A stretch of 44,179 nucleotides of DNA from Paludibacteraceae bacterium. GTDB lineage: Bacteria; Bacteroidota; Bacteroidia; Bacteroidales; Paludibacteraceae. The position numbers and the translations under genes are program-made. Of the stretch, positions 17,401 through 34,802 are shown piece after piece. The stretch covers positions 1 through 44,179 of the forward strand of contig JAGCWA010000027.1 of NCBI GenBank assembly GCA_017962085.1. Reading direction: 5' to 3'. The notes under the pieces were generated by a model. That model had not been told where the DNA came from and ran no database searches. It was given only the letters and a program-made list of their open reading frames with translations. Positions within the stretch are counted from its first letter, which is position 1; each line of letters begins with the position of its first letter.

Positions 17401-20400
17401 AGCTCTCGTTGCTTGCGCTGGCAGCGTCACGTTGCGACACGTAGTAGGTCGTCTCGCCTGCGGTGGCGGTCGAAACGGTAGGCGGTGTGGTGGAGCCTGT
17501 TCCTCCCGTCTGCGCGTCATACCAGAGCAGTTCGTACGTTTTATTAGGGTCCATCTGATTGATCTTAGCGTTCTCCGTCAAGGCGGCAGGGTTTTCATTC
17601 AAGCAATAAACCGTATCCGACACGAAAGGAGCAGGTGCGCCCAAGATCATCACCGTCAGTTTCGTCAGTCCGCTTTGGCAGGTCGAACCGTCCGGATTGG
17701 TGACTTGTTGGAATACCCAATAATAGTAAGTCTCATCTTTTGTGGAAGCCAAATCCTCCGCAGTAGGTGTAGGGGTAGTCGGGGAAGCCCCGGCGGTTGA
17801 GGAAGGCTCCGTATCGTCTTTGAACTGGCCCAACCACATGATCGTGCCATCAGCCGCTTTGCCCGTCACGGCATCCGACTTGCGCGTCAATATATCGGTG
17901 ATCGCTTCCGTCTTCAGGTATTGCACGGTGGTGGTGGTCAGCTTGGCCGGGCTCTCATAGAAGTCAGCTGTGATGCTTCCCGTAGCGCTGGCGCAATAGC
18001 CCGTAGCCTCAGCCGTCACTGTAAGGGCGCCCGCTTCCGCCGCCGTTGTGATGCCGTATGTCGCCACGGTTTGTCCGTTGCTCCACTTCACCGTCGCTGA
18101 TGACGGGTCAGTCGTCACACTCAAGGTCGTCTTGTCACAGACAGGGTCCGCGGCAGGGGTAACCATTGCTGTAGGCTTGGCGTTAAAGGTGATGTGGGAG
18201 GTGTCCGAACAATTTTCCCCGCTCGTCACCTTGTAGTAGTAGGTGTATGGAGTTAGACTACCCGCCAAGGAGGAGAGGTTGGGTTCCGCGGCGGATTGCA
18301 TATTTTTATCCGTGTACCAATCAATGGTTAGGCTTGCGTCCGCAGGTTTCGGCAATGCAGGAATTGCGGTCGCTTCCGGTGATTGTTTAGTCGGATCGGC
18401 CACCGATGCGCAGAAATCAGCCACTGTTCCGTCCAGATCGACGGCAGGGATTTGATTCACTGTGACGGTATATTCGTTCACATCCGAACGACAACCTGTT
18501 GTCTTATCCTTCACGACATAGTAGAATATATTCTCCCCAGCAGGCACTGCCAAGACTGCCGGTTCATTGGTTTTCTGTGAGGTGTCAACACTGGTGTACC
18601 AAATAATGTCATGGTTGGCGATCTCCTTCGAAGGCTCTGCGCTGAGGGTTCCTTCGCAGAATGGGTCAGGGTCGTTCAGCGTTTCGTCAGGCTTTCCGTT
18701 CGCGATGACATGGATACTATCCCACACCCAACAACTCTTTCCGTCGTCGCCAGGGAATTCGATGTCCTTCACCAGCAGGTAGTACCAATCGGCGTCTTCC
18801 CACGTCACATTGTAGGAGGAAGTCTCATCGCCAGCCGTGTAGCCGGCGCCAGGAATACCTGCGGCTGTTTTGGAACCCTTGTGCCAAGAGGCCACATACT
18901 TGCGAGGCTCGTCGTCCGGACCGACCGTAATACCCATGACGGAAGGATCCGTCGGGGCGAATTTCTTAGTGGTCAGTTTAGCAATTTCGCCCGGACAGAG
19001 TTGCACCTCCTTCACGGACGCGTTAGTTTTCACCACAGTGGCAGGGTCGGCCGAGATGATCTCAGCCTCCTTCACCTTTTCGCAGGCGGTGCAGTTCAAA
19101 CCCGCAATGACCGGAATAGTGGAGATGGAGATCTTACGGCAAGGCGTGAATGCCGAAGTTGTCTTCCATGACTTATCTGCCATCAAATCGGAGTATTCGC
19201 CTACGACCACGCGGAAGTAGATACGTTTCTCATGCTTAGGATCATCGATCTTGGAGAAGATATCATCCCAATAATCTTCCACCGACACGTCAAATTTATC
19301 TGTTTCAACCACCTCTTCCGTATGGAGAGTCGTCCATTGGATAGGGTTTGTCTCACTTTCGGAGGAAGGCTCTTGGAAAGTATATTGATAGACGTAGCCC
19401 ACCTTCTTGGTTGGGTCGATTTGCCCATCTGAATATAAATAAAATTTCTTTATCGCATCAGAGGTTATGGAGGTAAGGGTTAACACATCCTCCGTACATA
19501 GGTCGAGGATATCCTTGCCCGTGCTTACCGAAGACTCCATGTTCACGTCAGGAGGGGTACAGACTTGGAAAATGATATTGTCAATACCATAATCGCGAGT
19601 TGGTCCATAAATAGGTTGTCCATCTTCTTGGTATCCGTAGTGCCGTACTTTTAATTTCACGGAGACTTCACTTTTCCCTTCTACATCCTCTGCACTAATT
19701 TTAAATGGTTTGCCGGCATGTTTCCATCCATCTTGTCCATCCTTAAAGTATTTGAAGTCTCTTTCCAGAACATTTCCATTATATTCCAAAAGCACTTCAA
19801 CAGATCCTGGATTTGGACCAATGGACGCAAAATCCGCACCAAAATAGATGTCTTTTCCTGTGCAAATATGGTCGATGTCTATTTCGAAAAAATCATCTTG
19901 GGATCCATCATCAAATAAATCGAACTGAAGCATACCTCCTGTTTCTGTGCCAGAATTATCAAACATCACGCCTTCCCCGTATGCACCAAATTTGGAAATT
20001 GCATACACCCCATGACCATACATTTCGTATGCTGTGTCCGTTCTCTGCCCCAGATTAGCATCACAAAGAACAGTTCCCAGTAAAGGAATTTTCAATGTGG
20101 CACCATTGGATTCGAGATAGTATGCTTTTACATAAGGAATTCTCGGAGGTCCATCATGCGACTGTGCCTCGTGAGTTTGACGGGATGGGATATTCTCTGT
20201 ATGTTTGATTCCATATCTGTCAGTCCATACATACGTGTTATCTGTTGGAAAATCACCAAAGTCGTCGTAATACAAATTTGTCATCGCCATGGGAGCTCCA
20301 CTGGTGTCTTTGCAACAATCTCCTGCCTTTATTTCCAATGCGGGTGATGACACAGGACTACATCCGGGAATTGTCACCTCGCAAGTTATCTTATGATTCG

Positions 20401-21445
20401 TTCCTGTACTTCCTGGAATAAAATTAAAATTAGGGTCTGTTGACTCTTGTCCAGAGGGAGATTCTTTCCATAAATATGTTGACCCCTCCGGATAGGTTTG
20501 TTTGGTGAACACACGCAGAGGTTGTTCTGGACAAGGGTTTCCTGTATATGCGGCTGAAGGCTGGAATTCTCCAGTCACTTTTATATCATCAATGCCAATA
20601 GGTATTTGGAAACAGTCAATTGCGCGGTAAAAATAGAATGTGATTTTCCCTGATTCAGGGACTGTTGTCTTGTGGGTGACGGTTGTGGACTTCCCGTAAT
20701 CAACAATTTTTGTCGTGGCTTTAGTCAAGCTCGCTTCATTAAGTGCGTTATTATAACTTGTATTGAATGTCGCACCATCATTGTTCGACACGACTCCAAT
20801 ATTTAGATTGTTACCGTCGCCTATTTTGTTGCCTTCATAGGTGTATTTTGTGATATATTTATTCATCGAGGTCACTTGTTGGACGTTTACAAGATGGTCG
20901 AAGTAGGTGGGATCCAACAAGTTATATGCGGTGAAGGACAACTCGACAGAAGAGCCGGGAAGCAATCCACTTACGGTATAAGAAACGAATGGGCAATGAT
21001 GCGCAGATCCTAAATTGACATACATATTGTTAGACGTCTCGTTCGCCTTGCAAAAGGAATGGATGAGTTTTGGCTGTGCCGTGACGATGGAGTATCCATA
21101 TTGTGCTTTACTTCCATTTGCCTGAAGGTCGTTTCGAAGGAAGATGGCATTTACTTTTGTCATATCATTGCTGCTCTCGCTATAGAAAGAACCGCCTATT
21201 CCTTTCATCTTTGCATACTCAGGTCCAATAAACATGTCCGTCTTGCACAGCTTATCCCAGTCCAAATTAGCATCATACCATCCATTTTCGTCCGATGTCA
21301 TGATCGGGCAACAGAGCTCTTTGTTCGTGTCAAAATCCGTGCCGGCCACAACGCATTGGGCGTTCATAGTGGTCATGCCACTCGCAAAAAGCAGGACCAT
21401 TCCTGTCAGAAACCGTCTCATTATATGTTTCATGTTATACCCCAT
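14468..21445 (-). CDS. Giant multi-Ig adhesin-like protein with gliding-motility (T9SS type B) C-terminus
   Basis: The 2325-residue product begins with a signal peptide (about residues 1-30, ending TMNAQ). Starts at 21445 and 21433 are both possible; 21445 has the A-rich upstream context. Residues about 31-295 and 376-655 look like two large beta-sandwich modules with paired cysteines, separated by an Ig-like module. Residues about 800-2230 are a chain of Ig-like modules that begin with a YCEG/FCEG-type Cys and contain WY- or Y-YV-rich strands. The last ~87 residues (PPYFTPNGDGIQDRW; DRYGKLV; DGTFNGQPLPSTDYWYMIDI) match the gliding-motility-associated, type B T9SS sorting domain. It is therefore likely exported and anchored or released at the cell surface. 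Adhesion to substrate is an inference. The first ~670 codons are visibly AT-richer than the rest. Confidence 0.9.
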   Translation of the reverse strand: MGYNMKHIMRRFLTGMVLLFASGMTTMNAQCVVAGTDFDTNKELCCPIMTSDENGWYDANLDWDKLCKTDMFIGPEYAKMKGIGGSFYSESSNDMTKVNAIFLRNDLQANGSKAQYGYSIVTAQPKLIHSFCKANETSNNMYVNLGSAHHCPFVSYTVSGLLPGSSVELSFTAYNLLDPTYFDHLVNVQQVTSMNKYITKYTYEGNKIGDGNNLNIGVVSNNDGATFNTSYNNALNEASLTKATTKIVDYGKSTTVTHKTTVPESGKITFYFYRAIDCFQIPIGIDDIKVTGEFQPSAAYTGNPCPEQPLRVFTKQTYPEGSTYLWKESPSGQESTDPNFNFIPGSTGTNHKITCEVTIPGCSPVSSPALEIKAGDCCKDTSGAPMAMTNLYYDDFGDFPTDNTYVWTDRYGIKHTENIPSRQTHEAQSHDGPPRIPYVKAYYLESNGATLKIPLLGTVLCDANLGQRTDTAYEMYGHGVYAISKFGAYGEGVMFDNSGTETGGMLQFDLFDDGSQDDFFEIDIDHICTGKDIYFGADFASIGPNPGSVEVLLEYNGNVLERDFKYFKDGQDGWKHAGKPFKISAEDVEGKSEVSVKLKVRHYGYQEDGQPIYGPTRDYGIDNIIFQVCTPPDVNMESSVSTGKDILDLCTEDVLTLTSITSDAIKKFYLYSDGQIDPTKKVGYVYQYTFQEPSSESETNPIQWTTLHTEEVVETDKFDVSVEDYWDDIFSKIDDPKHEKRIYFRVVVGEYSDLMADKSWKTTSAFTPCRKISISTIPVIAGLNCTACEKVKEAEIISADPATVVKTNASVKEVQLCPGEIAKLTTKKFAPTDPSVMGITVGPDDEPRKYVASWHKGSKTAAGIPGAGYTAGDETSSYNVTWEDADWYYLLVKDIEFPGDDGKSCWVWDSIHVIANGKPDETLNDPDPFCEGTLSAEPSKEIANHDIIWYTSVDTSQKTNEPAVLAVPAGENIFYYVVKDKTTGCRSDVNEYTVTVNQIPAVDLDGTVADFCASVADPTKQSPEATAIPALPKPADASLTIDWYTDKNMQSAAEPNLSSLAGSLTPYTYYYKVTSGENCSDTSHITFNAKPTAMVTPAADPVCDKTTLSVTTDPSSATVKWSNGQTVATYGITTAAEAGALTVTAEATGYCASATGSITADFYESPAKLTTTTVQYLKTEAITDILTRKSDAVTGKAADGTIMWLGQFKDDTEPSSTAGASPTTPTPTAEDLASTKDETYYYWVFQQVTNPDGSTCQSGLTKLTVMILGAPAPFVSDTVYCLNENPAALTENAKINQMDPNKTYELLWYDAQTGGTGSTTPPTVSTATAGETTYYVSQRDAASASNESSRMPIKVTVYEVPAPKFDPISDYCVGDIASPLPTTLTKDEGNFLMAERLVWSDGTTTDATFTPNTTVNSTTTYTYTAKQYYKLSSGVECESKETSLDVTVNYTPVPGDATVSYIAAEVGSDNKTFAAITTKNWVEESGYTYYYALEGSTDFQPTAPKPEFDVNSLNGGTKKIMYSVYRVDNATNCKSEASTITVTISDAFPPIVANVLYCEGEALADLTAKRNPQGNKTEADYTLIWYGTTQPSSTTDPGTEADTYPLQGNATTSPAGGVTTTTYYVAQRDDNTGAVSPAQEIKVIVYPTPILSVSTPAAVCETEVNLATAVTLTNDVPGMIYNKDYFTDANGTTPLVNSLVSESGSYGVQYAYNAKVNSGELCKSKVEAVDVTIDTLHVLADNVTTCPEMSAKFTSEVQTNASTVTYAWEGDGGDKGNAADFETRRFTGGNYGDHYSYSLAVTAGTCSETLLLEVVLGQGPVVGTLTIADPTNTEVPTRVYTNSLTSEEYYYCGGDVTVTPAYDGDGDYVLTTPSGATSSASPFTVSEAGVYTLAYTNGCPTSLTFKLTDAQIALTNTTPSLGLCEGDKFTSSLTVTPAGGLDYTLTWKKDNVAIDGETSSTYTINGAVAENSGFYTAEANRKGCVSITDIGQLNVTAAISVTLPDAPTICEGEETELVITDIQPSGTSLEWQADPTILTATNSERVTVQPTFRPGEGHQSTYTYSVTASNSGCERTYQVSVKVDEALKGDLTGVTSICEGRSTSLSAESYAASTYSWSLNGEPVASSATTDVSPAATSTYKVDMTRGVCAVSDEIKVVVTTYPVILSMDSVGIRDRQITMEPNRGTGVFTYWVDDDDSRTTTNTLIKDLTFSTHVINVVDENGCGSSFRFQVDPPEISIPPYFTPNGDGIQDRWVIGNLAETYPNSVVSIFDRYGKLVSQYLGHKSDGWDGTFNGQPLPSTDYWYMIDIEEIGRIYSGHFTLMRR

Positions 21446-21713: not shown

Positions 21714-24056
21714 ATGAAAAAGATTTTAAAAAAGTTATTCATGCTCACGGCGATGTTTTGCTTCGCTGGCGCATCGACGTATGCCGATGGGTATGACTTA
21801 AGTGAAGAAGAGATGGAGAATCAAGTATCCCCTGCGCCCGAATCGGCCCGCACCTACCCGGAGGGCTCCGCGGTCTATTACAATGGATTGCTCACGCTGA
21901 AGGGCAACCAGCTGGTGAACGAGTGCGGGAAACCAGTCCAACTGAGAGGCATGAGTTCCCACGGTCTGGCATGGTTTCCTAGATGTTACACGCAGGAGTC
22001 GTTGACCGCATTGGTGAATGATTGGCACATAGACATATTCCGCCTAGCCATCTACACGCATGAGTGGGGCGGATATTGCGGAGAGCAGTGGAAGTCCAAA
22101 AGTGACTACAACACGTACATCGACGAGTTGGTGGACATCTGCGGCAATTTGGGTATCTACTGCATCATCGATTGGCACATCCTGAACCAAGGCAGCGGCG
22201 ACCCGAACACCACATTGGACGATGCCATCCCCTTCTGGGACTATATGTCCGCCAAGCACAAGAACGACAAACATGTCTTGTATGAGATATGCAACGAGCC
22301 AAACGGGTTCGATGTGAAATGGTCGGATGTCAAACAATATGCGGAGGAGGTCATTCCTGTGATCAGAAAGAACGACCCCGACAAAATCATCATCTGCGGA
22401 ACCCCTACTTGGAGCCAGGATGTGGACATCGCCGCACAAAACCCTTTGGATTTCAGCAACGTAATGTACACACTCCACTTCTACTCCGGCACCCACACCC
22501 AATACCTGAGGGATAAGGCGCAAAAGGCGCTCGACAAGGGTTTGGCGATTTTCGTGACAGAGTTCGGCACAACGCAGTCAAGCGGAGATGGAGGCGTCTA
22601 CATCAGCGAGTGCAACACTTGGATGGACTGGATGGATGAGCGCAAGATCAGCTGGGTGAACTGGAGCTTCGCCGACAAGTCAGAATCCTCCTCGGCTTTA
22701 TCGCCAGGCGCATCCAACCAAGGGAACTGGAACATGGTTTCCGAATCAGGACAATACATCAAACGGTTGTTAAGCCAGCCGAAGGGCTTCGAGCCATGCA
22801 ACGGCGACTCGCTCACCACTCCTGAATATGTGGAGAACGTGAACCCGATGGCTGCCATAAAATACCCGAAGGGCTCCCCTGTCTACCACAACGGCAAACT
22901 TCACGTGCAGAACGGACGCCTGACCAACGAGTGCGACTTTGACGTCCAACTGCGAGGCCTAAGCTCGGACAACCTGTCCGTCTACTCGACATGCTACACG
23001 TCAAACTCCCTCAACGCTATGCTCAACGATTGGAACGCCAGCCTGTTCCGCATCTCCGTCCACACGAACGGCGAAGACGGATACTGCGTGAACGGATCCG
23101 ACCAAGGAATCTCCATGTATAACTATAACGACAAGGTGGATAACCTAGTTCGCCTCTGTGGCACCAAAGGTATCTACTGCGTGGTTAACTGGCACCTGAC
23201 CGGAAAGGGTGACCCGAACGCCAACATGAAGGAGGCCACCATATTCTGGCGTCACATGGCACAACGATACAAGAACTACAGTCATGTGCTCTTCGAGATA
23301 TGCGACAACACCAACGGCGTGGATTGGAGCTCGATAAAGAGCTACGCCGATTCCATGATCTCCCTGATCCGACAATTCGACAAAGAGAAGATCATCATCT
23401 GCGGAACCCCTTCGTCAGACCGCGAATGGGAAGCCGTGGCGGCCAATCCGTTGGCAGGCGACAACATCATGTACACGATGCACTTCGCCGCTGGCTCGGA
23501 CGGTCAGACCTTGCGTGAGAAAGCCAATGCGACCATCCTCAAGGGCTTGCCGTTGTTCGTCACCGAATTTAGCCTCTCCTCGACAAACGGAGGTTCCATC
23601 AACACCACCGAAGGGGAAACGTGGATCGACTGGATGAAGTCACGCAGCCTTAGCTGGACATACGCAAACTTCGCCGACGGCACACAGACAAACTCCGCCT
23701 TGAACAATGGAGCATGCGGCAGCAGAGACTGGACCTCCGTATCCGCTTCAGGCGAGTTCGTCAAAGCCCAATTATCGACGCCAAACAACTTCCACTCTTG
23801 CGTCGACGGTGTGGAGGATATCCTTCTCGACAGACAAATCGTGAAGCTCTACCCGAACCCGGCGAAGGACGAGTTCAACGTTTCCGCACCAGAGGGGATG
23901 AAACTGACGAAGGTGCAACTCTTCGACCTCACAGGACGCTTCCTGCTCGAATCCGAGAAGGAGGTGGTGAACATCTCCGGCTTGGAGCGCGGGGTCTACT
24001 GTGTGAAGGTCTTCCTCTCCGACGGAGTGGCTGTAACACAGATCGTGAAGGAATAG
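21714..24056 (+). CDS. Secreted GH5 cellulase with a second, degenerate GH5 domain and T9SS tail
   Basis: I chose ATG 21714 (MKKILKKLFML..., signal peptide to about residue 26) over the in-frame GTG at 21681; the product is 780 residues. Domain 1 (about 47-355) is a complete GH5, probably subfamily 2: LYEICNEPNG with acid/base Glu195, HFYSG, FVTEFGTT with nucleophile Glu283, and WVNWSFADKSESSSALSPGA. Domain 2 (about 385-692) is clearly homologous throughout, but NEP has become DNT (Asp531-Asn532-Thr533), HFY has become HFA, and the conserved NW of NWSF has become YA; the nucleophile position Glu618 and the Arg and His of the barrel remain. It is therefore probably not a retaining glycosidase and may bind substrate. 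The last ~75 residues are a type A T9SS sorting domain (LYPNPAKDEF; LTGRFLLES; LERGVYCVKV). Its closest relative in the window is the next gene. Confidence 0.92.
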   Translation: MKKILKKLFMLTAMFCFAGASTYADGYDLSEEEMENQVSPAPESARTYPEGSAVYYNGLLTLKGNQLVNECGKPVQLRGMSSHGLAWFPRCYTQESLTALVNDWHIDIFRLAIYTHEWGGYCGEQWKSKSDYNTYIDELVDICGNLGIYCIIDWHILNQGSGDPNTTLDDAIPFWDYMSAKHKNDKHVLYEICNEPNGFDVKWSDVKQYAEEVIPVIRKNDPDKIIICGTPTWSQDVDIAAQNPLDFSNVMYTLHFYSGTHTQYLRDKAQKALDKGLAIFVTEFGTTQSSGDGGVYISECNTWMDWMDERKISWVNWSFADKSESSSALSPGASNQGNWNMVSESGQYIKRLLSQPKGFEPCNGDSLTTPEYVENVNPMAAIKYPKGSPVYHNGKLHVQNGRLTNECDFDVQLRGLSSDNLSVYSTCYTSNSLNAMLNDWNASLFRISVHTNGEDGYCVNGSDQGISMYNYNDKVDNLVRLCGTKGIYCVVNWHLTGKGDPNANMKEATIFWRHMAQRYKNYSHVLFEICDNTNGVDWSSIKSYADSMISLIRQFDKEKIIICGTPSSDREWEAVAANPLAGDNIMYTMHFAAGSDGQTLREKANATILKGLPLFVTEFSLSSTNGGSINTTEGETWIDWMKSRSLSWTYANFADGTQTNSALNNGACGSRDWTSVSASGEFVKAQLSTPNNFHSCVDGVEDILLDRQIVKLYPNPAKDEFNVSAPEGMKLTKVQLFDLTGRFLLESEKEVVNISGLERGVYCVKVFLSDGVAVTQIVKE

Positions 24057-24372: not shown

Positions 24373-25731
24373 ATGAAAGCAAAAATGTTTACTAGCATGA
24401 TTATGCTTACGGCAATGACTTTCCTTGCCGACACGTCTGCTTTTGCGGGCGGGTATAATCGAAATGAAGAAGGAATGGAACATCAAGTATCCCCTGCGCC
24501 CACCTCGGCCCGCTCCTATCCCGTGGGCTCTCCGGTCTATTACAATGGCAAGCTCTCCGTACAGGGCACCCAAATGGTGAACGAGTGCGGAAGACCCGTA
24601 CAACTGAAAGGAATGAGTTCCCACGGTTTGGCCTGGTTCCCTCAATGCTACACGGAGGAGTCATTGACCGTATTGGTGAACGATTGGCACATAGACATAT
24701 TCCGCTTGGCCATCTACACACATGAGAAAGGAGGCTACTGCAAGACAGACGGTACGCAGTGGAAGAGCAAGGATGAGTACAACGCATACATCGACGAGTT
24801 GGTGGATATCTGCGGGAAATTAGGCATCTACTGCATCATCGACTGGCATATCCTGCAGGAAGGAAGCGGGAACCCGAAAAACACGTTGGATGACGCTATC
24901 CCTTTCTGGGACTATATGTCAGCGAAGCACAAGGACGACAAGCACGTTTTGTACGAGATATGCAACGAGCCGAACGGATTCATGGTGAGATGGTCCGACG
25001 TTAAGGAGTATGCGGATAAGGTGATTCCTGTGATTCGCGCGAACGACCCGGACAAGATTGTCATCTGTGGCACCCCGATGTGGAGCCAGGATGTGGACTT
25101 GGCGTCCCAGAATCCATTGTCGTATAACAATGTGATGTACACGCTCCATTTCTACTCCGGAGACCACTTCCAAAGCTTGCGCGATAAGGCGCAAACGGCG
25201 CTCAACAATGGTGCGGCGATCTTTGTGACGGAATTCGGCACGACCAAGGCTTCCGGAGACGGAGGAGTCTTCCTCGACGAGTGTAACAGGTGGATGGATT
25301 GGATGAACGAACGCAAAATCAGTTGGGTGAACTGGAGCTTCTCCGACAAAGCGGAATCATCCGCCGCCTTATCGCCGGGCGCATCCATGAGCAAAAACTG
25401 GAACATGGTTTCCGAGTCCGGACAATACATCAAGCAGATGTTGAGCCAACCAAAGAACTTCGAGCCTTGCGAAGGCATTAATGGAGTGGAAGATAATCTG
25501 CTCGAGAAACAGCCTATCACCCTCTATCCGAACCCAACGAAGGACGAGTTCAGTGTCTACGTGCCAGAGGGAATGCACTTGACAAAAGTGCAACTCTTCG
25601 ACCTCACAGGGCGTTTCCTGCTCGAATCCGACAAAGAGGTGGTGAACATCTCCGGCTTGGAACGAGGCGTCTACGGCGTGAAGGTAATCTTCACGGAGGG
25701 AGTTACAATGTCAGAAGTCATGAAAGAATAA
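24373..25731 (+). CDS. Secreted GH5 endoglucanase with T9SS sorting domain
   Basis: The 452-residue product has a signal peptide (about 1-26, ending AFAGG), one complete GH5 domain (about 46-355) and a type A T9SS tail (about 375-452). The acid/base is Glu199 in LYEICNEPNG and the nucleophile Glu287 in FVTEFGTT; HFYSG and WVNWSFSDKAESSAALSPGA are intact, which is characteristic of subfamily GH5_2 endoglucanases. It is highly similar over its whole length to domain 1 plus the tail of the preceding gene, so the pair arose by duplication, with domain 2 either gained by the upstream copy or lost here. The enzyme likely cuts internal beta-1,4-glucosidic bonds at the cell surface. Confidence 0.93.
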   Translation: MKAKMFTSMIMLTAMTFLADTSAFAGGYNRNEEGMEHQVSPAPTSARSYPVGSPVYYNGKLSVQGTQMVNECGRPVQLKGMSSHGLAWFPQCYTEESLTVLVNDWHIDIFRLAIYTHEKGGYCKTDGTQWKSKDEYNAYIDELVDICGKLGIYCIIDWHILQEGSGNPKNTLDDAIPFWDYMSAKHKDDKHVLYEICNEPNGFMVRWSDVKEYADKVIPVIRANDPDKIVICGTPMWSQDVDLASQNPLSYNNVMYTLHFYSGDHFQSLRDKAQTALNNGAAIFVTEFGTTKASGDGGVFLDECNRWMDWMNERKISWVNWSFSDKAESSAALSPGASMSKNWNMVSESGQYIKQMLSQPKNFEPCEGINGVEDNLLEKQPITLYPNPTKDEFSVYVPEGMHLTKVQLFDLTGRFLLESDKEVVNISGLERGVYGVKVIFTEGVTMSEVMKE

Positions 25732-26489: not shown

Positions 26490-27386
26490 ATGAAGAAACA
26501 GATTATTACGATGTTGACGCTGATGATGGCATTTGCGTCGGCATCTTTTGCAGAGGACGAATCGTCTGAATTAGAAGCACCAGTCATGGATGATAGCGTG
26601 GAAGCTACAGTGGATTCAGCAGCCGCTACTGTGAATTCAGCAGTCAAAACGACAAATTCAGTTGCCACGACACTGGAATCGGAGACTGAAGAGGTGGTGG
26701 ATTCTGTCGCCGCAGATACGGCAGACCCGTATGTCCCATACAGCGAGGGACTTTTCTTCCGTCCTGAGGTAGGAGGCGGAAAACTGGTGTTCAGTAACCG
26801 TGTGGACACGAAAGCGAATTACGACATCACCGTAGGCGTGAACATGGGCTATCAATTCAACGCCAACCTTTCCATCGGTTGGGGTGTCTCCTTCTACTAT
26901 TCCAGCATGACGCTCGAGAACTTCGAAGAACGCACAGCATGGAACCCTACAACAAGGGAGGAATACGAAGATAAAGTCTATAGACTGCCTTTCTACGTAT
27001 CCGGTCGTTGGAAATTCACCCTGCACAAGCTGACTCCGTTCATAGACGGAAGATTCGGTTATGCAGTGGGTCTGAACAGATACACCTTCAAGGAGGATCA
27101 ATCCGACCCGGGCATCACCACAGAGAACAACGGTCTCTTCCTCGAATTCGGGGCAGGCGTGCAGTGCAAGAATTTCTCCGTGGCTGTTGTGCTCGACAGA
27201 TTGGCTTGTAAGGACTTCGACCCTGAGTACCGTGAATTGGCAGGATGGCCAGGCATCAACAGCAACTACCATGATGTCTACATCGGACTGAAACTCGGAT
27301 ACGACTTCACGTTCAAGAGCACCGACAAGGAAGAAGAAGAGGTGGAAGAGGAAAATGTGTTCGATTCTTCCGCAAAAAAACAATAG
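26490..27386 (+). CDS. Outer-membrane beta-barrel protein
   Basis: This 298-residue protein has a signal peptide (MKKQIITMLTLMMAFASASFA). A Ser/Thr/Ala/Val/Asp-rich low-complexity linker follows (about residues 22-80). From about 85 to 280 there are alternating amphipathic strands typical of an 8-10-stranded barrel: GLFFRPEVGGGKLVF, ITVGVNMGYQF, IGWGVSFYYSS, LPFYVSGRWKF, TPFIDGRFGYAVG, LFLEFGAGVQC and VYIGLKLGYDFTF. The tail is Glu-rich. It resembles the OMP_b-brl families. With no SusC in the window, a role in oligosaccharide passage or envelope structure is possible but unproven. It may be co-transcribed with the small protein upstream, since I see only a poor -7 match between them. Confidence 0.82.
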   Translation: MKKQIITMLTLMMAFASASFAEDESSELEAPVMDDSVEATVDSAAATVNSAVKTTNSVATTLESETEEVVDSVAADTADPYVPYSEGLFFRPEVGGGKLVFSNRVDTKANYDITVGVNMGYQFNANLSIGWGVSFYYSSMTLENFEERTAWNPTTREEYEDKVYRLPFYVSGRWKFTLHKLTPFIDGRFGYAVGLNRYTFKEDQSDPGITTENNGLFLEFGAGVQCKNFSVAVVLDRLACKDFDPEYRELAGWPGINSNYHDVYIGLKLGYDFTFKSTDKEEEEVEEENVFDSSAKKQ

Positions 27387-27426
27387 TCCGGGAAACTATC
27401 CCCGAACCACAATACTAATTGAGAGA

Positions 27427-27459
27427 CAAGGAGGGAACAGCACCGTTTCCTCCTTGTTC
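27427..27459 (+). terminator. Terminator-like hairpin after the barrel gene
   Basis: A 12-bp stem with one wobble pair (CAAGGAGGGAAC with GTTTCCTCCTTG) closes a 6-nt loop. The following T-tract is weak (TTCGCTCATTT). Confidence 0.5.
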
Positions 27460-27590
27460 GCTCATTTGCCACCTCGGTCTCCACGCTCTTCCACACCCCA
27501 TGCCAGCAAGAACGGGCAGGGATATCAAAATGGTGGAAAAGCCGTGGAAAAATCCTTTTTTGAAAGTGTTGTATAAATCAAATATTGTAG

Positions 27591-27598
27591 TATATTTG
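27591..27598 (+). promoter_or_regulatory. Predicted -7 box for cellobiose phosphorylase
   Basis: TATATTTG matches TAnnTTTG, 57 bases upstream of the GH94 start codon. Confidence 0.55.
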
Positions 27599-27655
27599 TA
27601 CGATGTATGTAGATACTCCTTTTGAGAAAATAAATTTTAAATAAAAAGAAAGAAT

Positions 27656-30148
27656 ATGAATTTTGGACATTTTGACGATGCGAACCGTGAGTTTGTCATC
27701 ACCAATCCCGCGACTCCATTCCCTTGGATCAATTATTTGGGAAACGAAGATTTCTTCGGTTTGATTTCGAACACTGCGGGTGGTTATAGTTTCTACAAGG
27801 ACGCTAAGTTCCGCCGTATCACTCGTTACCGTTACAACGGTGTGCCTATGGACAATGGCGGACGTTATTTCTATATCAACGATAATGGCACCGTATGGAA
27901 CCCGGGATGGAAACCATGCAAGACTCCGCTCGACGCTTACGAGTGCCGCCACGGTTTGAACTACACCCGCATCACGGGCGCCAAGAACGGCATCGAGGCT
28001 TCTGTCCTCTTCTTCGTTCCTTTGAAGACTTGGGCTGAGGTGCAGAAAGTCACTTTGAAGAACACCACTACATACACCAAGAAGATCAAACTCTTCTCTT
28101 TCGCTGAATGGTGTCTTTGGAACGCCGCTACCGATATGGAGAACTTCCAACGTAACTGGTCTACCGGTGAGGTGGAGATCGATGGTAGCGTGATCTATCA
28201 CAAAACAGAATACAAGGAGCGTCGCGACCACTACGCATACTACGCGTTGACCAACGCTAAGATCGATGGTTACGACACGGACCGTGAGTCTTTCATCGGA
28301 CTCTATAACGAATTCGCTGATCCTCAGTGTGTAATGGCCGGCAAGCCAGGCAACTCGCTCGCACACGGATGGTCTCCGATCGCTTCCCACTACGTGGAGG
28401 TTGAGTTGAAGCCAGGAGAGAGCAAGGATTACATCTTCGTTCTCGGTTATGTGGAGAACGCTCGTGAGGAGAAATTCTCCCAGGAGGATATCGCCCGCAA
28501 GAAGAACGGTACGCTCATCTCTTCCCAGGATTCCGATGTTACTTTAGTGAACAAAAAGAAGGCTCTCGCCACCATCAACCGTTTCGCGACTGTTGAGGCT
28601 GTGGATGCCGCTTTCAACGAGTTGGCAGCCATGTGGGACGAGCTTCTCGACAAATATGTTGTGAAGTCTGACGACGACAAGTTGAACCGTATGGTGAACA
28701 TATGGAGCCAATACCAATGTATGATCACCTTCAACTTCTCCCGTTCGGCATCCTTCTTCGAGAGCGGTATCGGACGTGGTATGGGATTCCGCGATTCCAA
28801 CCAAGACTTGGTCGGCTTCGTGCACCAGATTCCTTCCCGTGCCCGCGAGCGTATCATCGACATCGCCTCCACACAATTCCCTGACGGTGGTTGCTACCAT
28901 CAGTATCAGCCATTGACGAAGCGCGGTAACAATGACATCGGCGGTGGATTCAACGATGACCCATGCTGGTTGATCTTCGGTACGGTGGCTTACGTGAAGG
29001 AGTCCGGCGACTTCTCCATCTTGAAGGAGCCTGTTCCATTCGATAACAAACCTGGTACGGAAGTGTCTCTCTTCGAGCACCTTAAGATTTCCTTCAACCA
29101 CGTTGTCAACAACCTCGGTCCTCACATGTTGCCATTGATTGGCCGTGCTGACTGGAACGACTGCTTGAACTTGAACTGCTTCTCTTGGGATCCTAACGAG
29201 TCCTTCCAGACGACGGAGAACAAGACGGAGGGTAGCAAGGCTGAGTCTTTGATGATCGCTGGTCTCTTCGTTGTAACCGGTAAGGATTACGTTGAACTCT
29301 GTAAGCAAATCGGCGAGACCGCTGAGGCTGAGCGTGCGCAGAAGTGCATCGACTCGATGGTTGAGGCTGTCAAGAAGCATGGTTGGGACGGTGAGTGGTA
29401 TCTCCGCGCATACGACTTCGACGGAAACAAGATCGGTTCCCACGAGTGTGAGGAGGGTAAGATCTTCATCGAGAGCCAAGGTTTCTGTACGATGGCAGGT
29501 ATCGGTTTGGAAGAGGGTATGGTTGACAAGGCCATCGACTCTTGTAGAAAATATTTGGATTGCGAGCATGGTATGGTTCTTAACAACCCTGCCTACACGA
29601 AATATCATGTCGAGATGGGTGAGATCAGTTCATATCCTGCAGGATACAAGGAGAATGCGGGTATCTTCTGCCACAACAACCCATGGGTGATCATCGGTGA
29701 GACGGTTGCCGGACGTGGTAACGACGCTTGGGAGCTCTTCCGCAAGATCGCTCCAATGTACTTGAAGGATCAAGCGCTTCATAAAGTGGAGCCTTACGTG
29801 AACTGCCAGATGGTGGCCGGTAAGGACGCCGCTAAACCAGGTGAGGGTAAGAACTCATGGTTGACGGGTACAGCCGCTTGGATGTGGTTGACGGTTAGCC
29901 AATACTTGTTGGGTATCAAGCCTTCTTACGTCGGATTGGAGATTAACCCATGTCTCCCAGCCGATTTGAAGTGCTATTCAGTGAACCGTAAGTTCCGCGA
30001 TGCGGACTACAGCATCAAGGTGGTCAATCCGACAGGCGTTCAGAAGGGCGTCAAGAAGTTGATCGTGAATGGCAAAGAGATCGCCGGCAACATCGTTCCT
30101 ATGCAGCCTAAGGGCAGCAAGAATGTTGTTGAGGTTATTATGGGATAA
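27656..30148 (+). CDS. Cellobiose phosphorylase (GH94)
   Basis: The 830-residue protein phosphorolyses cellobiose to glucose 1-phosphate and glucose, saving one ATP per disaccharide. The N-terminus [20 protein letters not shown] and the [16 protein letters not shown] segment match GH94 cellobiose phosphorylases, as does the length. The catalytic region contains [17 protein letters not shown], in which the general acid Asp lies in the DWND motif (residues 499-502). Further family features are [12 protein letters not shown] and the GTAAWMW segment. It has no signal peptide, so it acts in the cytoplasm on imported cellobiose. The GH5, GH3 and GPH genes downstream complete a cello-oligosaccharide pathway. 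Laminaribiose or cellodextrin specificity is less likely, but assays would be needed. Confidence 0.93.
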
Positions 30149-30159
30149 CACAACTTTCA

Positions 30160-30202
30160 GCAAGGCAAGCCACTCAATCCGAGTGGCTTCCCTGCTTTTC
30201 TT
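30160..30202 (+). terminator. Hairpin between GH94 and GH5 lipoprotein genes
   Basis: A perfect 9-bp AAGCCACTC/GAGTGGCTT stem with a 5-nt loop, flanked by GCAAGG/CCCTGC, is followed by TTTTCTTTCT. It probably ends or attenuates transcription from the GH94 promoter. Confidence 0.65.
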
Positions 30203-30224
30203 TCTAACATAAATTTTTCGATAA

Positions 30225-31454
30225 ATGAAGAGATTGTTTTTGGGTGCGCTGATGGCTCTCGCCATGCTGGTTTCGTGCGGCGGCGGAGACAATAACGCCA
30301 AACAAAAGAAGAATGTTTCCCCTTATCCGGTGAATTCACCGGTGGCTAAGCATGGAAGACTGCAGGTCAAGGATTTACAACTTTGCGACAAAGATGGTAA
30401 TCCTGTCCAATTGGCTGGTATGAGTACGATGGGATGGCAATGGTGCGGCGACTGCTACACCAAGGAGTCCATCAAGACAATGGTCGAGGAGTGGGGCATC
30501 AGTGTGCTTCGCTTAGCGATGTACGTCGAAGAGGGTGGTTATAACACCAATCCGATCGGTTTCCAACAGAAGATGTGTGAGATGATTGACATCTGTGGCG
30601 AACTCGGTATCTACTGTATCGTCGACTGGCATATCCTGACACCGGGCAACCCGTTGGATTCCAAATATGGCGGCGCCAAGGAATTCTTCAGCTTCATATC
30701 GAAGAAATATGCTGGCAAAGAGCATTTGATCTATGAGATTTGTAATGAGCCGAATAACTGCTTGGAGAAGGGTGACCCGATCCATCCTTGGGTTTGCACC
30801 AAGGAGACCAACGTCACTTGGGACATGATCGCCGACTATGCCGACGACATCATCCCAGCTATCCAGGAGGGTTACGACTCGATAGGCGTCACTCATCCTG
30901 TCGTCATTGTGGGTACTCCACAGTGGGATCAGCTGGTGGACGCTTGTCTGAAGGAGGGTATGTATCAAGGAAACGGCAAGGACCTCTGCGATTCGTTGCC
31001 TGCCCGCGACGCTCGTCTGAAACACGACAACGTCATGTACGCCTTCCACTTCTATGCGAAAGAGCATAATGAAGGCTTCGAGAAAGACGGAAAGCCTGAT
31101 TATTACAATATGTACGCCTATATGTATGATGTTTTGGGCAAACTGCCAGTCTTCTGCTCAGAGTTCGGTCTCTGCGAGGCGAACGGAAACGGCGAGTTGG
31201 ACTTCGACCGTACCGACAAGTGGTTGCTCATGCTGAGCGGCAACAACGCAGGTAACCAGAAGGTTAGCTTCTGCAACTGGAGTTTCTCCGACAACGAGCG
31301 TTCCTCTTCCGCACTTAAACCTGGCGCATGTGCCAGAGAGGCATGGGACGATGTCACCCCATCGGGCGACTACATCAAGCGTGTCCTCTCCGTTGTGAAC
31401 AAGGGCGGAGCGGACTCTACTGTTTTGAAGCAGTCTAATTTGTATACGAAGTAA
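30225..31454 (+). CDS. GH5 glucanase lipoprotein
   Basis: This 409-residue enzyme has a lipoprotein signal: LVSC at Cys18 followed by GGGDNN. It is anchored in the envelope instead of using a T9SS tail. The GH5 domain fills about residues 38-395, with LIYEICNEPNN (acid/base Glu175), FHFYAK, VFCSEFGL (nucleophile Glu313) and CNWSFSDNERSSSALKPGA, all consistent with subfamily GH5_2. Compared with the secreted paralogues it has a ~25-residue insertion after the NEP motif (PIHPWVCTKETN...) and a longer loop before HFYAK. It lies between cellobiose phosphorylase and GH3, so it may trim cellodextrins in the periplasm or at the outer membrane. Confidence 0.92.
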   Translation: MKRLFLGALMALAMLVSCGGGDNNAKQKKNVSPYPVNSPVAKHGRLQVKDLQLCDKDGNPVQLAGMSTMGWQWCGDCYTKESIKTMVEEWGISVLRLAMYVEEGGYNTNPIGFQQKMCEMIDICGELGIYCIVDWHILTPGNPLDSKYGGAKEFFSFISKKYAGKEHLIYEICNEPNNCLEKGDPIHPWVCTKETNVTWDMIADYADDIIPAIQEGYDSIGVTHPVVIVGTPQWDQLVDACLKEGMYQGNGKDLCDSLPARDARLKHDNVMYAFHFYAKEHNEGFEKDGKPDYYNMYAYMYDVLGKLPVFCSEFGLCEANGNGELDFDRTDKWLLMLSGNNAGNQKVSFCNWSFSDNERSSSALKPGACAREAWDDVTPSGDYIKRVLSVVNKGGADSTVLKQSNLYTK

Positions 31455-31457
31455 CAT

Positions 31458-31495
31458 GGAACGCATCCCCTCTATGGGGGTGCTTCCTTTTTTTT
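31458..31495 (+). terminator. Terminator after the GH5 lipoprotein gene
   Basis: An imperfect GGAA(C)GCA(T)CCCC / GGGG(G)TGC(T)TCC stem is followed by eight T. The next start codon follows after 25 bases, so readthrough or a weak internal promoter must supply the GH3 gene. Confidence 0.75.
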
Positions 31496-31520
31496 AACTA
31501 TAACGGATTTTACAAGAGGT

Positions 31521-33299
31521 ATGAGAGTCGGAATGATAAAAGGCCTGTTCGTAATGGCTTTGGGCGCATTGACGTTTACGCAGTGCGATTCCCCGAAAGA
31601 GAATACTAAAAAAACTGTTGTTCAAGAGAACGTGGGTTATAAATTCGCCGCGATTGACACCTCTTGGAAAAATCTTTCCGTCCGTGAGAAAATCGGACAG
31701 ACCATGATGGTGGTCTCCCAATACTACGATCAGAAAAAGATCGGTAACGGAGACATGAAGGCCTTCATGGAGAAATACCCTATCGGCGGTTTCTTCATCG
31801 CCCGCTGGTATTTCGACAACTACCAGAAACAATACAACACCTCTTCGGAGAACCTGATCGCGGCTGCGATGAAGGATTACTACGCCGCCGCCAAGTATCC
31901 GTTGTTCTTCAGCGAGGACTTCGAGCGTGGCTTGGGCGAGACCTATCCGAAGTACACCCACATGCCGGCTGAGATGTCACTCGGTGCGGCGAATAGCCCA
32001 GCTTTGGCCTACGACTTCGGCAAGGCGATCGCCTCCGAGGCGAAGGAGATGGGCTTCAACTGGTTGCTGCACCCTGTGTGCGACCTGAACATGAACCCTC
32101 TGCAGGAGTTGGTCATCGAACGTTCCGTATCCGACGACGTGGAGAAGGCGATTCCGATCCTCAAGAAACAAATGGAGGGAATCCACGAGCAGAACGTCAT
32201 CTCTACCGTAAAGCACTTCCCGGGCGATGGTGTCACCATGCGCAACCAGCATATCGTGACGACCGCCAACACCCTCTCTGAGGATGAGTGGAAAGCAACC
32301 TTCGGCAAGCTCTTCGGCGAGATGATCGACGATGGCGCCGCCTCCATCATGGTGGGACATATCCAATTGCCTTTCTACCAGCAGGAAAAAATCAACGGGC
32401 AATTGCCTCCTGCAACCCTTTCCAAGGAATTGATGGTAGACCTGTTGAAGAATAAGATGAAATACAATGGCGTGGTGATCACCGATGCGCTCAACATGGG
32501 TGGTTGCGCAGGCTACTACAAGAATGAGCTGGAGGTATCCGTTCAATGCTTCGTGGCGGGTGCGGATATCGTCCTTTGGCCTTCCTTAGCTTATATGGAC
32601 ACGATCGAGGCGAGAATCAACAGGGGAGAGATCCCGATGTCCCGTCTGGACGACGCTGTCAGCCGTGTATGGGCATTGCGTGAGCGTTTCGGCCTGTTGG
32701 AGAAAGTTTCCCCAGACTCCATCTGTACTCCGATGAGCGAGGAGACAAAGACTCTCGTGAAAGAGACGGGCACCAAGCTGGCTGAGTCCGCCATCACATT
32801 GGAGGAGGACCGCAACAGCGATATTCCTTTGAAGCCGGACATGACCAAGAAACTGTTGATCGTGCCTGTAGGCTACTGCTTGGACGAGGGCAAGTTCAGC
32901 GTCACGAAACAAGAGTTCGAAAAGCGTGGATTCGATGTGACGATGATGGTTAACCCTCACTTCTACGATTGGGGCTACCGCATCGATTCGTTGGATTACT
33001 ACGACAAGATCATCGTCTGCTTCGAGAACCGTTACTTCGCGCCATTGGGCACACCGTTCTTCAAGGACAAGGAGTCGTTCGGCGTATGGACGGTCAACAT
33101 GACGGATCCGAAGAAGCGTATCGCCATCTCTTACAGCAATCCGTTCCTGAACGATTGCTACGAGGGAGTCGCACCGTTGAAGGTCAATGCCTACAGCATC
33201 GACGCCTTCACACAGACGGCGGTGGTGAAAGCTTTGTGCGGCGAGATACCTTTCACAGCACAGTCACCGGTGAAATTGAATCCTGACGCACTTAAATAA
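31521..33299 (+). CDS. GH3 family glycosidase, NagZ-like N-domain (probable beta-glucosidase role)
   Basis: The 592-residue protein has an export signal ending in FTQC (Cys22), a poor but possible lipobox. The GH3 barrel (about 45-390) includes KHFPGDG at Lys231-Gly237 and the nucleophile Asp322 in VVITDALNMGG. The His of the NagZ-type acid/base loop is kept (His244), but the Asp two residues before it in NagZ is Asn242 here. The C-terminal ~190 residues form a second alpha/beta domain (KLLIVPVGYCLDEG...). From its place after GH94 and GH5 and before a sugar transporter, it most likely splits cello-oligosaccharides, although the NagZ-type fold more often handles N-acetylglucosaminides. A phosphorylase activity is a further possibility. 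It ends 27 bases before the transporter's ATG. Confidence 0.85.
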   Translation: MRVGMIKGLFVMALGALTFTQCDSPKENTKKTVVQENVGYKFAAIDTSWKNLSVREKIGQTMMVVSQYYDQKKIGNGDMKAFMEKYPIGGFFIARWYFDNYQKQYNTSSENLIAAAMKDYYAAAKYPLFFSEDFERGLGETYPKYTHMPAEMSLGAANSPALAYDFGKAIASEAKEMGFNWLLHPVCDLNMNPLQELVIERSVSDDVEKAIPILKKQMEGIHEQNVISTVKHFPGDGVTMRNQHIVTTANTLSEDEWKATFGKLFGEMIDDGAASIMVGHIQLPFYQQEKINGQLPPATLSKELMVDLLKNKMKYNGVVITDALNMGGCAGYYKNELEVSVQCFVAGADIVLWPSLAYMDTIEARINRGEIPMSRLDDAVSRVWALRERFGLLEKVSPDSICTPMSEETKTLVKETGTKLAESAITLEEDRNSDIPLKPDMTKKLLIVPVGYCLDEGKFSVTKQEFEKRGFDVTMMVNPHFYDWGYRIDSLDYYDKIIVCFENRYFAPLGTPFFKDKESFGVWTVNMTDPKKRIAISYSNPFLNDCYEGVAPLKVNAYSIDAFTQTAVVKALCGEIPFTAQSPVKLNPDALK

Positions 33300-33326
33300 T
33301 TGAAAATCAATAAAAATTTTAATACA

Positions 33327-34802
33327 ATGGAAAACAATCAGAGATTATCTATTTTAGAGAAACTCTCCTACGGAGCGGGAGATTTGGCATGTAACCTCTT
33401 CTGGGGTTTGATATGCATGGCCACAGCGTTTTACACAGACTACTTCGGCATCGCTCCGGCGGTAGTGGGTACCATGGTCTTGGTAGTATCTTGTATCGAC
33501 ATCGCGTTCGACGTGATCATCGGTGCGATCGCAGACCGTCACAACACACGTTGGGGACGTTTCCGTCCTTGGATCCTCTTCGGTGTGGTTCCATTCTGTG
33601 TCATCGGTTTCTTTACTTTCTACACGCCTGAGTTCAACGAAACAGGCAAGGTCATCTACGCATACGCAACCTTCTTGCTCTGCCGTTTGATGTACTCCGT
33701 AGTGAATGTGCCTTATGGTGCGTTGATGGGTGTCATCTCTCCAGATCCAGACGAGAGAACCTCCGTTTCCGCTTTCCGTAACATCGGTGCGCAGATCGGT
33801 TGCTTGTGCAGCTACGGTATGGTCTTCACGTTGGTTCGTTTCATCCAAGACCACCTGCAGTGCAGCGGACAGGCGGCGTTCTCCTGGACAGCCTTCATCT
33901 ATGCGATCGCGGCGTTTGTCATGTTGATGTGCACCTTCTTCTTCACCAGGGAGCGTGTCGAGCCGGTGAAGCAAGAGACCAGCAAGCTTTCAGACGATGT
34001 GAAGGACTTGTGCAAGAACAAACCATGGATCATGTTGTCCATCGCGGGTATCGCCATGTTGTTCTTCGTGTTCGTGCACAATGGTTTGATCCCTTACTAT
34101 GCTAAGTACTGCTTGGCCGACTATAATATTGTGGACGGGAAAGAGGTCTTCACCGTATCGGGTACTTTGTTCGGCATTAAGTTGACATGGGAGTTGGTTT
34201 CCACGCTGTTGTTGGCTTCCGGCTCTGTCTTCACGATCATTGGTACGATGTTGATCCAGACCGTTGTGAAGAAGTTCGGTAAGAAACCTACATGGATCGC
34301 ATGCTTCACATTGGCATCCCTTCTTTCCCTCTCCTTCCTCGTTTTGGACAGAAGCAATATCGGTACGATTATCATCCTGAACATCATCTTCACATTGGCG
34401 ATCGGTCCTTCCGGCTACATCATGTGGAGTATGTATGCTGACGTGGCAGACAATGCTGAGGTGGAGACGGGACGTCGCGCAACCGGTTTGATCTACTCTT
34501 CCGCCACGATGGCGCAGAAGTTGGGACAAGCATTGGCGAACTCAATTCCAGCATACGCCTTGGCAGCCATCGGTTTCGTGGCAAACACCCAGTTGAGCCC
34601 TGAGACCATAGAATCCCTGAAGTCCTATTTCTCACTGTTGCCGTTGGTAGGTTCCGTAATCGGTATCTTGGCATTGGTATTCTATAAGATCGACGAGGAG
34701 ACCATTCGTCGCAACTCAGCGATCCTTGAGGCGAAGAGAGCCGAGGAGAAAGACAAACAGGGAAACAGCCAAAGCATCGAAAAGGTTGAGGAAGGCAATT
34801 AA
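33327..34802 (+). CDS. GPH-family sugar:cation symporter (probable cellobiose transporter)
   Basis: The start is ATG 33327 (MENNQRLSILEKLSYGAGD), not the in-frame TTG at 33300, giving 491 residues. The N-terminal SYGAGDLACNLFWG and the GAIADRHNTRWGRFRPWILFG segment are hallmarks of the glycoside-pentoside-hexuronide branch of the major facilitator superfamily. About twelve hydrophobic helices can be counted, and DVADNAEVETGRRATGLIYS in the second half is also typical. It should import sugar with H+ or Na+ across the inner membrane. Following GH3 and GH94 in the same direction, its likely cargo is cellobiose or short cellodextrins. The C-terminus is a charged tail. Confidence 0.92.
   Translation: MENNQRLSILEKLSYGAGDLACNLFWGLICMATAFYTDYFGIAPAVVGTMVLVVSCIDIAFDVIIGAIADRHNTRWGRFRPWILFGVVPFCVIGFFTFYTPEFNETGKVIYAYATFLLCRLMYSVVNVPYGALMGVISPDPDERTSVSAFRNIGAQIGCLCSYGMVFTLVRFIQDHLQCSGQAAFSWTAFIYAIAAFVMLMCTFFFTRERVEPVKQETSKLSDDVKDLCKNKPWIMLSIAGIAMLFFVFVHNGLIPYYAKYCLADYNIVDGKEVFTVSGTLFGIKLTWELVSTLLLASGSVFTIIGTMLIQTVVKKFGKKPTWIACFTLASLLSLSFLVLDRSNIGTIIILNIIFTLAIGPSGYIMWSMYADVADNAEVETGRRATGLIYSSATMAQKLGQALANSIPAYALAAIGFVANTQLSPETIESLKSYFSLLPLVGSVIGILALVFYKIDEETIRRNSAILEAKRAEEKDKQGNSQSIEKVEEGN

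Follow-up and report, generated by a model that had tools for sequence, protein, structure and literature searches.

A second GH5 domain with a degenerate active site is kept by purifying selection in a tandem cellulase of rumen Paludibacteraceae and is probably a non-hydrolytic accessory module

The window, by which we mean the whole 44,179-nucleotide stretch of Paludibacteraceae DNA that was analyzed (contig JAGCWA010000027.1), carries a cellulase gene with two GH5 domains in tandem, followed by a second GH5 gene and the remainder of a cellulase cluster. The features are as follows.

21714..24056 (+), Cel5C-type gene of 780 aa: signal region, GH5 domain 1, linker, GH5-like domain 2 and T9SS C-terminal sorting domain
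21855..22787 (+), GH5 domain 1, residues 48-358 (Pfam and alignment)
22788..22862 (+), interdomain linker of 25 residues, residues 359-383
22863..23789 (+), GH5-like domain 2 with a degenerate active site, residues 384-692 (Pfam and alignment)
23847..24023 (+), T9SS sorting domain PF18962, residues 712-769 (Pfam)
24373..25731 (+), Cel5D-type neighbor with a single intact GH5, which shares about 80% identity with domain 1, and a T9SS tail
26490..34802 (+), remaining cellulase cluster, with the gene content reported in Naas 2018 (PMC5831590), made up of the next five entries
26490-27386 (+), weak beta-barrel match, below the Pfam cut-off
27656-30148 (+), GH94 (Pfam)
30225-31454 (+), GH5, Cel5B-like (Pfam)
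31521-33299 (+), GH3 (Pfam)
33300-34802 (+), sugar transporter MFS_2 (Pfam)

The 780-aa frame of the Cel5C-type gene opens with the ATG at 21714 and contains no internal stops. Its two GH5 domains are 45.8% identical, and domain 2 alone gives a PF00150 hit that spans positions 5-268 of the 272 in the profile (E 2e-41). The first-pass annotation had started domain 2 at 22864, which is one base out of frame and gives 11 stops on translation; the in-frame extent is 22863-23789. Because the genome of the window encodes SprA_N (E 2.7e-163 in a profile search) and 55 sorting-tail matches at E ≤ 0.001, 41 of them above the Pfam cut-off, type IX export of the product is plausible.

A gene at 37030-39330 is a second tandem GH5-GH5-T9SS gene from another GH5 branch; both of its domains keep the Asn-Glu pair but carry Asn where the active-site Trp would stand, and in the first domain Phe takes the place of the Tyr. 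The gene at 6541-8658 (-) encodes a GH5 protein whose C-terminal extension is long and whose T9SS tail is weak, and it is possibly, as a guess, the counterpart of Cel5A in the published cluster described below. The product of 14468-21445 (-) is 2325 aa long; Ig-like domains and CHU_C domains of type IX secretion are its only Pfam matches at E ≤ 0.001.

The Cel5C-type gene at 21714-24056 is the counterpart in the window of Cel5C from 'Candidatus Paraporphyromonas polyenzymogenes', a member of a cellulase cluster that Naas 2018 (PMC5831590) describes with the same GH5-GH5-T9SS architecture and the same cluster gene content. The identity between its two domains is given there as 45%, close to our value, and the assignment to GH5 subfamily 2 is the one made for that orthologue in the same paper. 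Cel5D and Cel5C_N are 72% identical in the published cluster, somewhat less than the corresponding pair here. Domain 1 of the orthologue at locus L013 is identical to PDB chain 5wh8_A at 318 of 319 aligned residues, and this chain is very probably the Cel5C_N of Naas 2018, although the code 5WH8 is not printed in its main text. The second domains of the window and L013 are 70% identical. Domain 2 of the window matches 5wh8 over its full length (E 6.5e-92), along with 6gjf, 3pzt, 1h11 and other GH5_2-type endoglucanase structures; of the two that we aligned, 5wh8 and 6gjf retain an Asn-Glu pair that domain 2 lacks. Gene order differs at L013, where the Cel5D-type gene (3259 onwards) precedes Cel5C; in L009-L012, L014 and the window it is found downstream.

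According to Naas 2018 (PMC5831590), the activity of Cel5C_C on carboxymethyl cellulose (CMC) was too weak for a specific activity to be determined, yet the authors still call it catalytically active. They treated the change in its active site as a suspected mutation and 'corrected' it; the 'corrected' Cel5C_C was also called catalytically active and cut cello-oligosaccharides with the rate and pattern of Cel5A, a slow enzyme, which means that the cleft can still accommodate a cello-oligosaccharide. Full-length Cel5C was less active on CMC than Cel5C_N alone, and domain 2 therefore brought no visible advantage there. The discussion mentions difficulty in expressing a protein 'with two active domains', and the binding method of that paper names Cel5A_C only.

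Three motif changes had been noticed earlier in domain 2 (CNEPNG to CDNTNG, HFYSG to HFAAG and WVNWSF to WTYANF), and all of them are present in the sequence. The numbering of Asp531-Asn532-Thr533 and Glu618 also proved correct on translation and alignment. The altered and retained sites are listed below.

23304..23312 (+), Asp531-Asn532-Thr533, replacing Asn-Glu(acid/base)-Pro (codon and alignment comparison)
23418..23429 (+), new motif Asp569-Arg570-Glu571-Trp572, adjoining the lost Trp (Trp233 of domain 1), in 7/7 second domains
23487..23489 (+), Ala592, replacing the active-site Tyr; Ala, Ser or Thr among orthologues
23565..23567 (+), Glu618, the retained nucleophile position, in 7/7
23664..23666 (+), Ala651, replacing the active-site Trp, in 7/7

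Among the eight residues that we take to be the classical GH5 set (BaCel5A numbering), the alignment bears out the earlier count of four altered in domain 2, namely the Asn, the acid/base Glu, the Tyr and the Trp. The Arg, both His residues and the nucleophile Glu are kept in all seven orthologous second domains, counting that of the window. An acid/base Glu preceded by Asn, and the Tyr and Trp of the -1 site, are marks of an active GH5 that all seven lack. Replacing Glu with Asn at the acid/base site requires at least two base changes, and the Asp-Asn codons are the same in kind across the seven. Beyond the catalytic residues, domain 2 has lost the aromatic positions that presumably form the subsites of a GH5 cleft (Trp87 of domain 1 is Val423, Tyr114 is His450 and Trp233 is Ser568), and these positions differ among its orthologues. 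The site of the Asp569-Trp572 motif reads Ser-Gln-Asp-Val in 35 of 35 intact domains. Domain 1 of the window keeps every one of the 12 active-site and subsite residues that were scored.

To place these changes among relatives, we drew on a scan of genome contigs in which 24 stretches matched the search pattern and 6 were confirmed as further loci (L009-L014) for the same protein. Each of the six has the GH5-GH5-T9SS architecture and an open frame of 784-788 aa; with the genomes of the genus included, the orthologous frames span 784-796 aa and contain no stop or frameshift. The comparison and the tree covered 51 GH5 domains (58 rows from the fetched loci minus seven partial duplicates), 9 of which are omitted from a 42-row alignment. 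Asp-Asn occurs in 7/7 orthologous second domains and in 0/44 of the other GH5 domains, all 44 of which have Asn-Glu. Two of the 44, from another gene of the window's genome (L008), have Asn at the Trp position, and one of these two has Phe at the Tyr. The carriers are seven species of one genus, or 7 of the 16 genomes of that genus. A protein search of 300 genomes of the family, drawn evenly from a larger group, scored above 500 bits in seven only, and the next score, 311 bits, is what intact domains reach. Among 393 genomes sampled from the order, a profile of domain 2 found a match at E ≤ 1e-60 only in the genome of the window itself. An rpoB match was found in 14 of the 16 genus genomes (carrier G159 and non-carrier G147 had none), and in the resulting tree the 6 carriers make up one side of a branch with 100/100 support. 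Because the carriers form one rpoB clade, the altered domain 2 has a single origin, and no loss is seen within the sampled clade.

The domain tree tells us about the tempo of this change. All seven second domains group together with 100/100 support, and the stem leading to them measures 1.36 changes per column, in contrast to branches of at most 0.25 within the clade and a stem of 0.14 for domain 1 plus Cel5D. The long stem and short inner branches therefore point to a burst of change followed by constraint. The fork that would tie domain 2 to one of the intact groups has support of 80/40, too little to tell from which of them it came. Median pairwise dN/dS over 21 pairs was 0.115 for domain 2 and 0.096 for the intact domain 1, by pairwise Nei-Gojobori estimates in which some dS values are saturated and recombination among species is visible. 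Domain 2 is thus under purifying selection, and the loss is ancient within the clade, involves multiple residues and has been maintained. The first-pass annotation had proposed a pseudo-enzyme that is retained by selection in fusion with an intact cellulase. This idea withstood a check for shared substitutions and for relaxed selection, since 7/7 orthologues carry the same substitutions at this low dN/dS and belong to a single species clade; the annotation's further suggestion of a carbohydrate-binding or scaffolding module is a candidate role, so that its interpretation is supported in part.

Recombination has left a trace of its own at this locus. The window copy and L009 share 86% of amino acids in domain 1 (dS 0.89) and are closer in domain 2 (93%, dS 0.37), and DNA identity between L009 and L011 falls to 67% near the end of domain 2 only. 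This mosaic pattern across L009-L014 and the window looks like recombination between species.

Where the changes fall relative to the old cleft was assessed on 102 columns in which no more than one of 35 intact domains deviates; all seven second domains keep 61 of these columns, and 41 are not so kept. Around 12 cleft positions, picked by the numbering of a Bacillus Cel5A, 21 of the columns within 2 residues are changed and 11 kept, compared with 20 changed and 50 kept elsewhere (OR 4.8, p 0.0005), and the enrichment persists when the 12 positions themselves are left out (OR 4.6, p 0.004). A control clade of 10 intact domains set against the other 25 had no such concentration (OR 0.9, p 1.0), whereas domain 2 in the same setting did (OR 2.5, p 0.02). 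Invariance follows the same line. The cleft of domain 1 is more invariant than the rest of the domain (48/51 versus 175/255, p 6e-5), but that of domain 2 is not (28/51 versus 147/255, OR 0.89, p 0.76); the excess in Cel5D is not significant (OR 2.0, p 0.22), so the contrast in cleft conservation rests on domain 1. Change is therefore concentrated at the old cleft, and constraint there has dropped to the level of the barrel as a whole. At 21 positions, including Asp531, Asn532, Ala651 and Asp569-Trp572, domain 2 has a new residue fixed in 7/7. These newly fixed residues were not significantly concentrated at the cleft with any of three window sizes around it (OR 1.3 to 2.4; p 0.60, 0.32 and 0.09).

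Our search of the literature for pseudo-GH5 domains, for which we claim no completeness, returned Naas 2018 and Aspeborg 2012 (PMC3526467) as relevant. The latter documents GH5 modules that lack the catalytic machinery as an established class, in which Rsi24C-GH5 of Clostridium thermocellum is the one characterized example; it has no acid/base residue, is inactive and binds crystalline cellulose. Rsi24C-GH5 is a distant GH5 that serves as a sensor on a membrane anti-sigma factor, whereas domain 2 is fused to a secreted, active cellulase. GH5_30, a Xanthomonas group derived from GH5_1 and a lipoprotein group near GH5_8 have lost the catalytic machinery and sit on long branches, as domain 2 does. 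These groups belong to other subfamilies, and the passage that describes them names none that emerges from GH5_2. Domain 2 has the traits by which such modules were recognized in Aspeborg 2012, a conserved lineage, a long branch and incomplete machinery, and purifying selection (median dN/dS 0.115 over 21 pairs) likewise fits a non-catalytic GH5 module.

Overall, domain 2, which corresponds to Cel5C_C in the window, is probably a former GH5 cellulase domain kept as a non-hydrolytic accessory module, and we have somewhat greater confidence in the more general statement that it is a pseudo-enzyme retained for a non-hydrolytic role. The natural domain would appear not to be meant for ordinary activity, and we infer that hydrolysis by domain 2 in vivo is absent or negligible. 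That the active-site change is a mutation, as the authors of Naas 2018 (PMC5831590) suspected, seems scarcely credible now that the same change appears in seven independently assembled genomes and involves a two-base Glu-to-Asn replacement, with low dN/dS and no stop or frameshift. We rejected simple decay and sequencing error on the same grounds, the agreement of those seven assemblies, the two base changes, the dN/dS of 0.115 and the open frames. The domain could instead still be an enzyme, slow or altered in specificity, that pairs its nucleophile with a relocated acid (e.g., Asp531, Asp569 or Glu571) or acts on substrates with good leaving groups, as plant myrosinase does. The nucleophile Glu, the Arg and both His residues are retained in 7/7, new invariant acidic residues adjoin the lost Trp, and some weak activity of Cel5C_C was reported (Naas 2018, PMC5831590). 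We nevertheless consider this improbable, because the acid/base residue, both aromatics at -1 (Tyr and Trp) and the aromatic subsites were lost together, the reported CMC activity was too low to measure, and trace activity of a purified protein can stem from contamination.

What a non-hydrolytic domain 2 does is a closer question. It may be a spacer or folding module, a barrel that holds domain 1 off the T9SS-anchored tail or aids export or stability, with its cleft free of ligand; we regard this as possible, if somewhat doubtful. The lost aromatics, which vary freely, and a constraint that is even across the barrel, the privilege of the cleft being gone, would favor it, as would the better performance of domain 1 alone as a CMCase (Naas 2018, PMC5831590). 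A cleft no more invariant than the rest, however, fits a spacer as well as a binder, and six cleft-lining positions that are invariant in 7/7 (the Arg, two His, Glu618, Asp531 and Asn532), together with the invariant Asp-Arg-Glu-Trp motif, are more than a spacer needs. These retained polar residues of the -1 site and the new motif would favor recognition through a rebuilt cleft face, and we tentatively lean toward recognition over a mere spacer, even though the lack of cleft concentration among the newly fixed residues told against it. On present sequence evidence, the loss of aromatic subsites argues against binding of plain cellulose through the ancestral cleft. We hold out a small chance that domain 2 has acquired something so far undescribed for GH5_2, either a new recognition site for a non-cellulose cell-wall ligand or a partner protein, or a slow reaction with a relocated acid.

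Under the preferred reading, a retained pseudo-enzyme that recognizes a ligand, a single clade of rumen Paludibacteraceae would descend from an ancestor that carried an active GH5 domain in tandem. A burst of change would have removed the acid/base Glu and its adjoining Asn, both aromatics at -1 (Tyr and Trp) and the aromatic subsites that stack against glucan. Purifying selection has since kept domain 2 joined, within a single secreted polypeptide, to domain 1, which is intact and highly active and would do the cutting while domain 2 acts as its non-hydrolytic partner. The target of domain 2 would most likely be either a protein partner or some cell-wall glycan that is not plain cellulose, recognized by way of loops rebuilt around the old cleft; there, the invariant Asp-Arg-Glu-Trp may take the place of the old Trp subsite.

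The novelty of the finding is modest because an orthologue of the gene, Cel5C, has already been published (Naas 2018, PMC5831590). What is new is that the loss affects multiple residues, arose once and has been maintained; that the change is shared across the clade and kept by selection is shown here and is not stated in that paper's account of Cel5C. A published puzzle, the near-inactive half of a very active rumen cellulase, thereby becomes an evolved and selectively kept pseudo-enzyme domain, and such an origin explains why so little was gained by changing the active site back. Annotators should also be cautious, since tandem GH5 domains do not equal two catalytic domains. If its role is found, domain 2 would show how dead catalytic domains are put to use in the multi-domain cellulases of uncultured rumen Bacteroidota.
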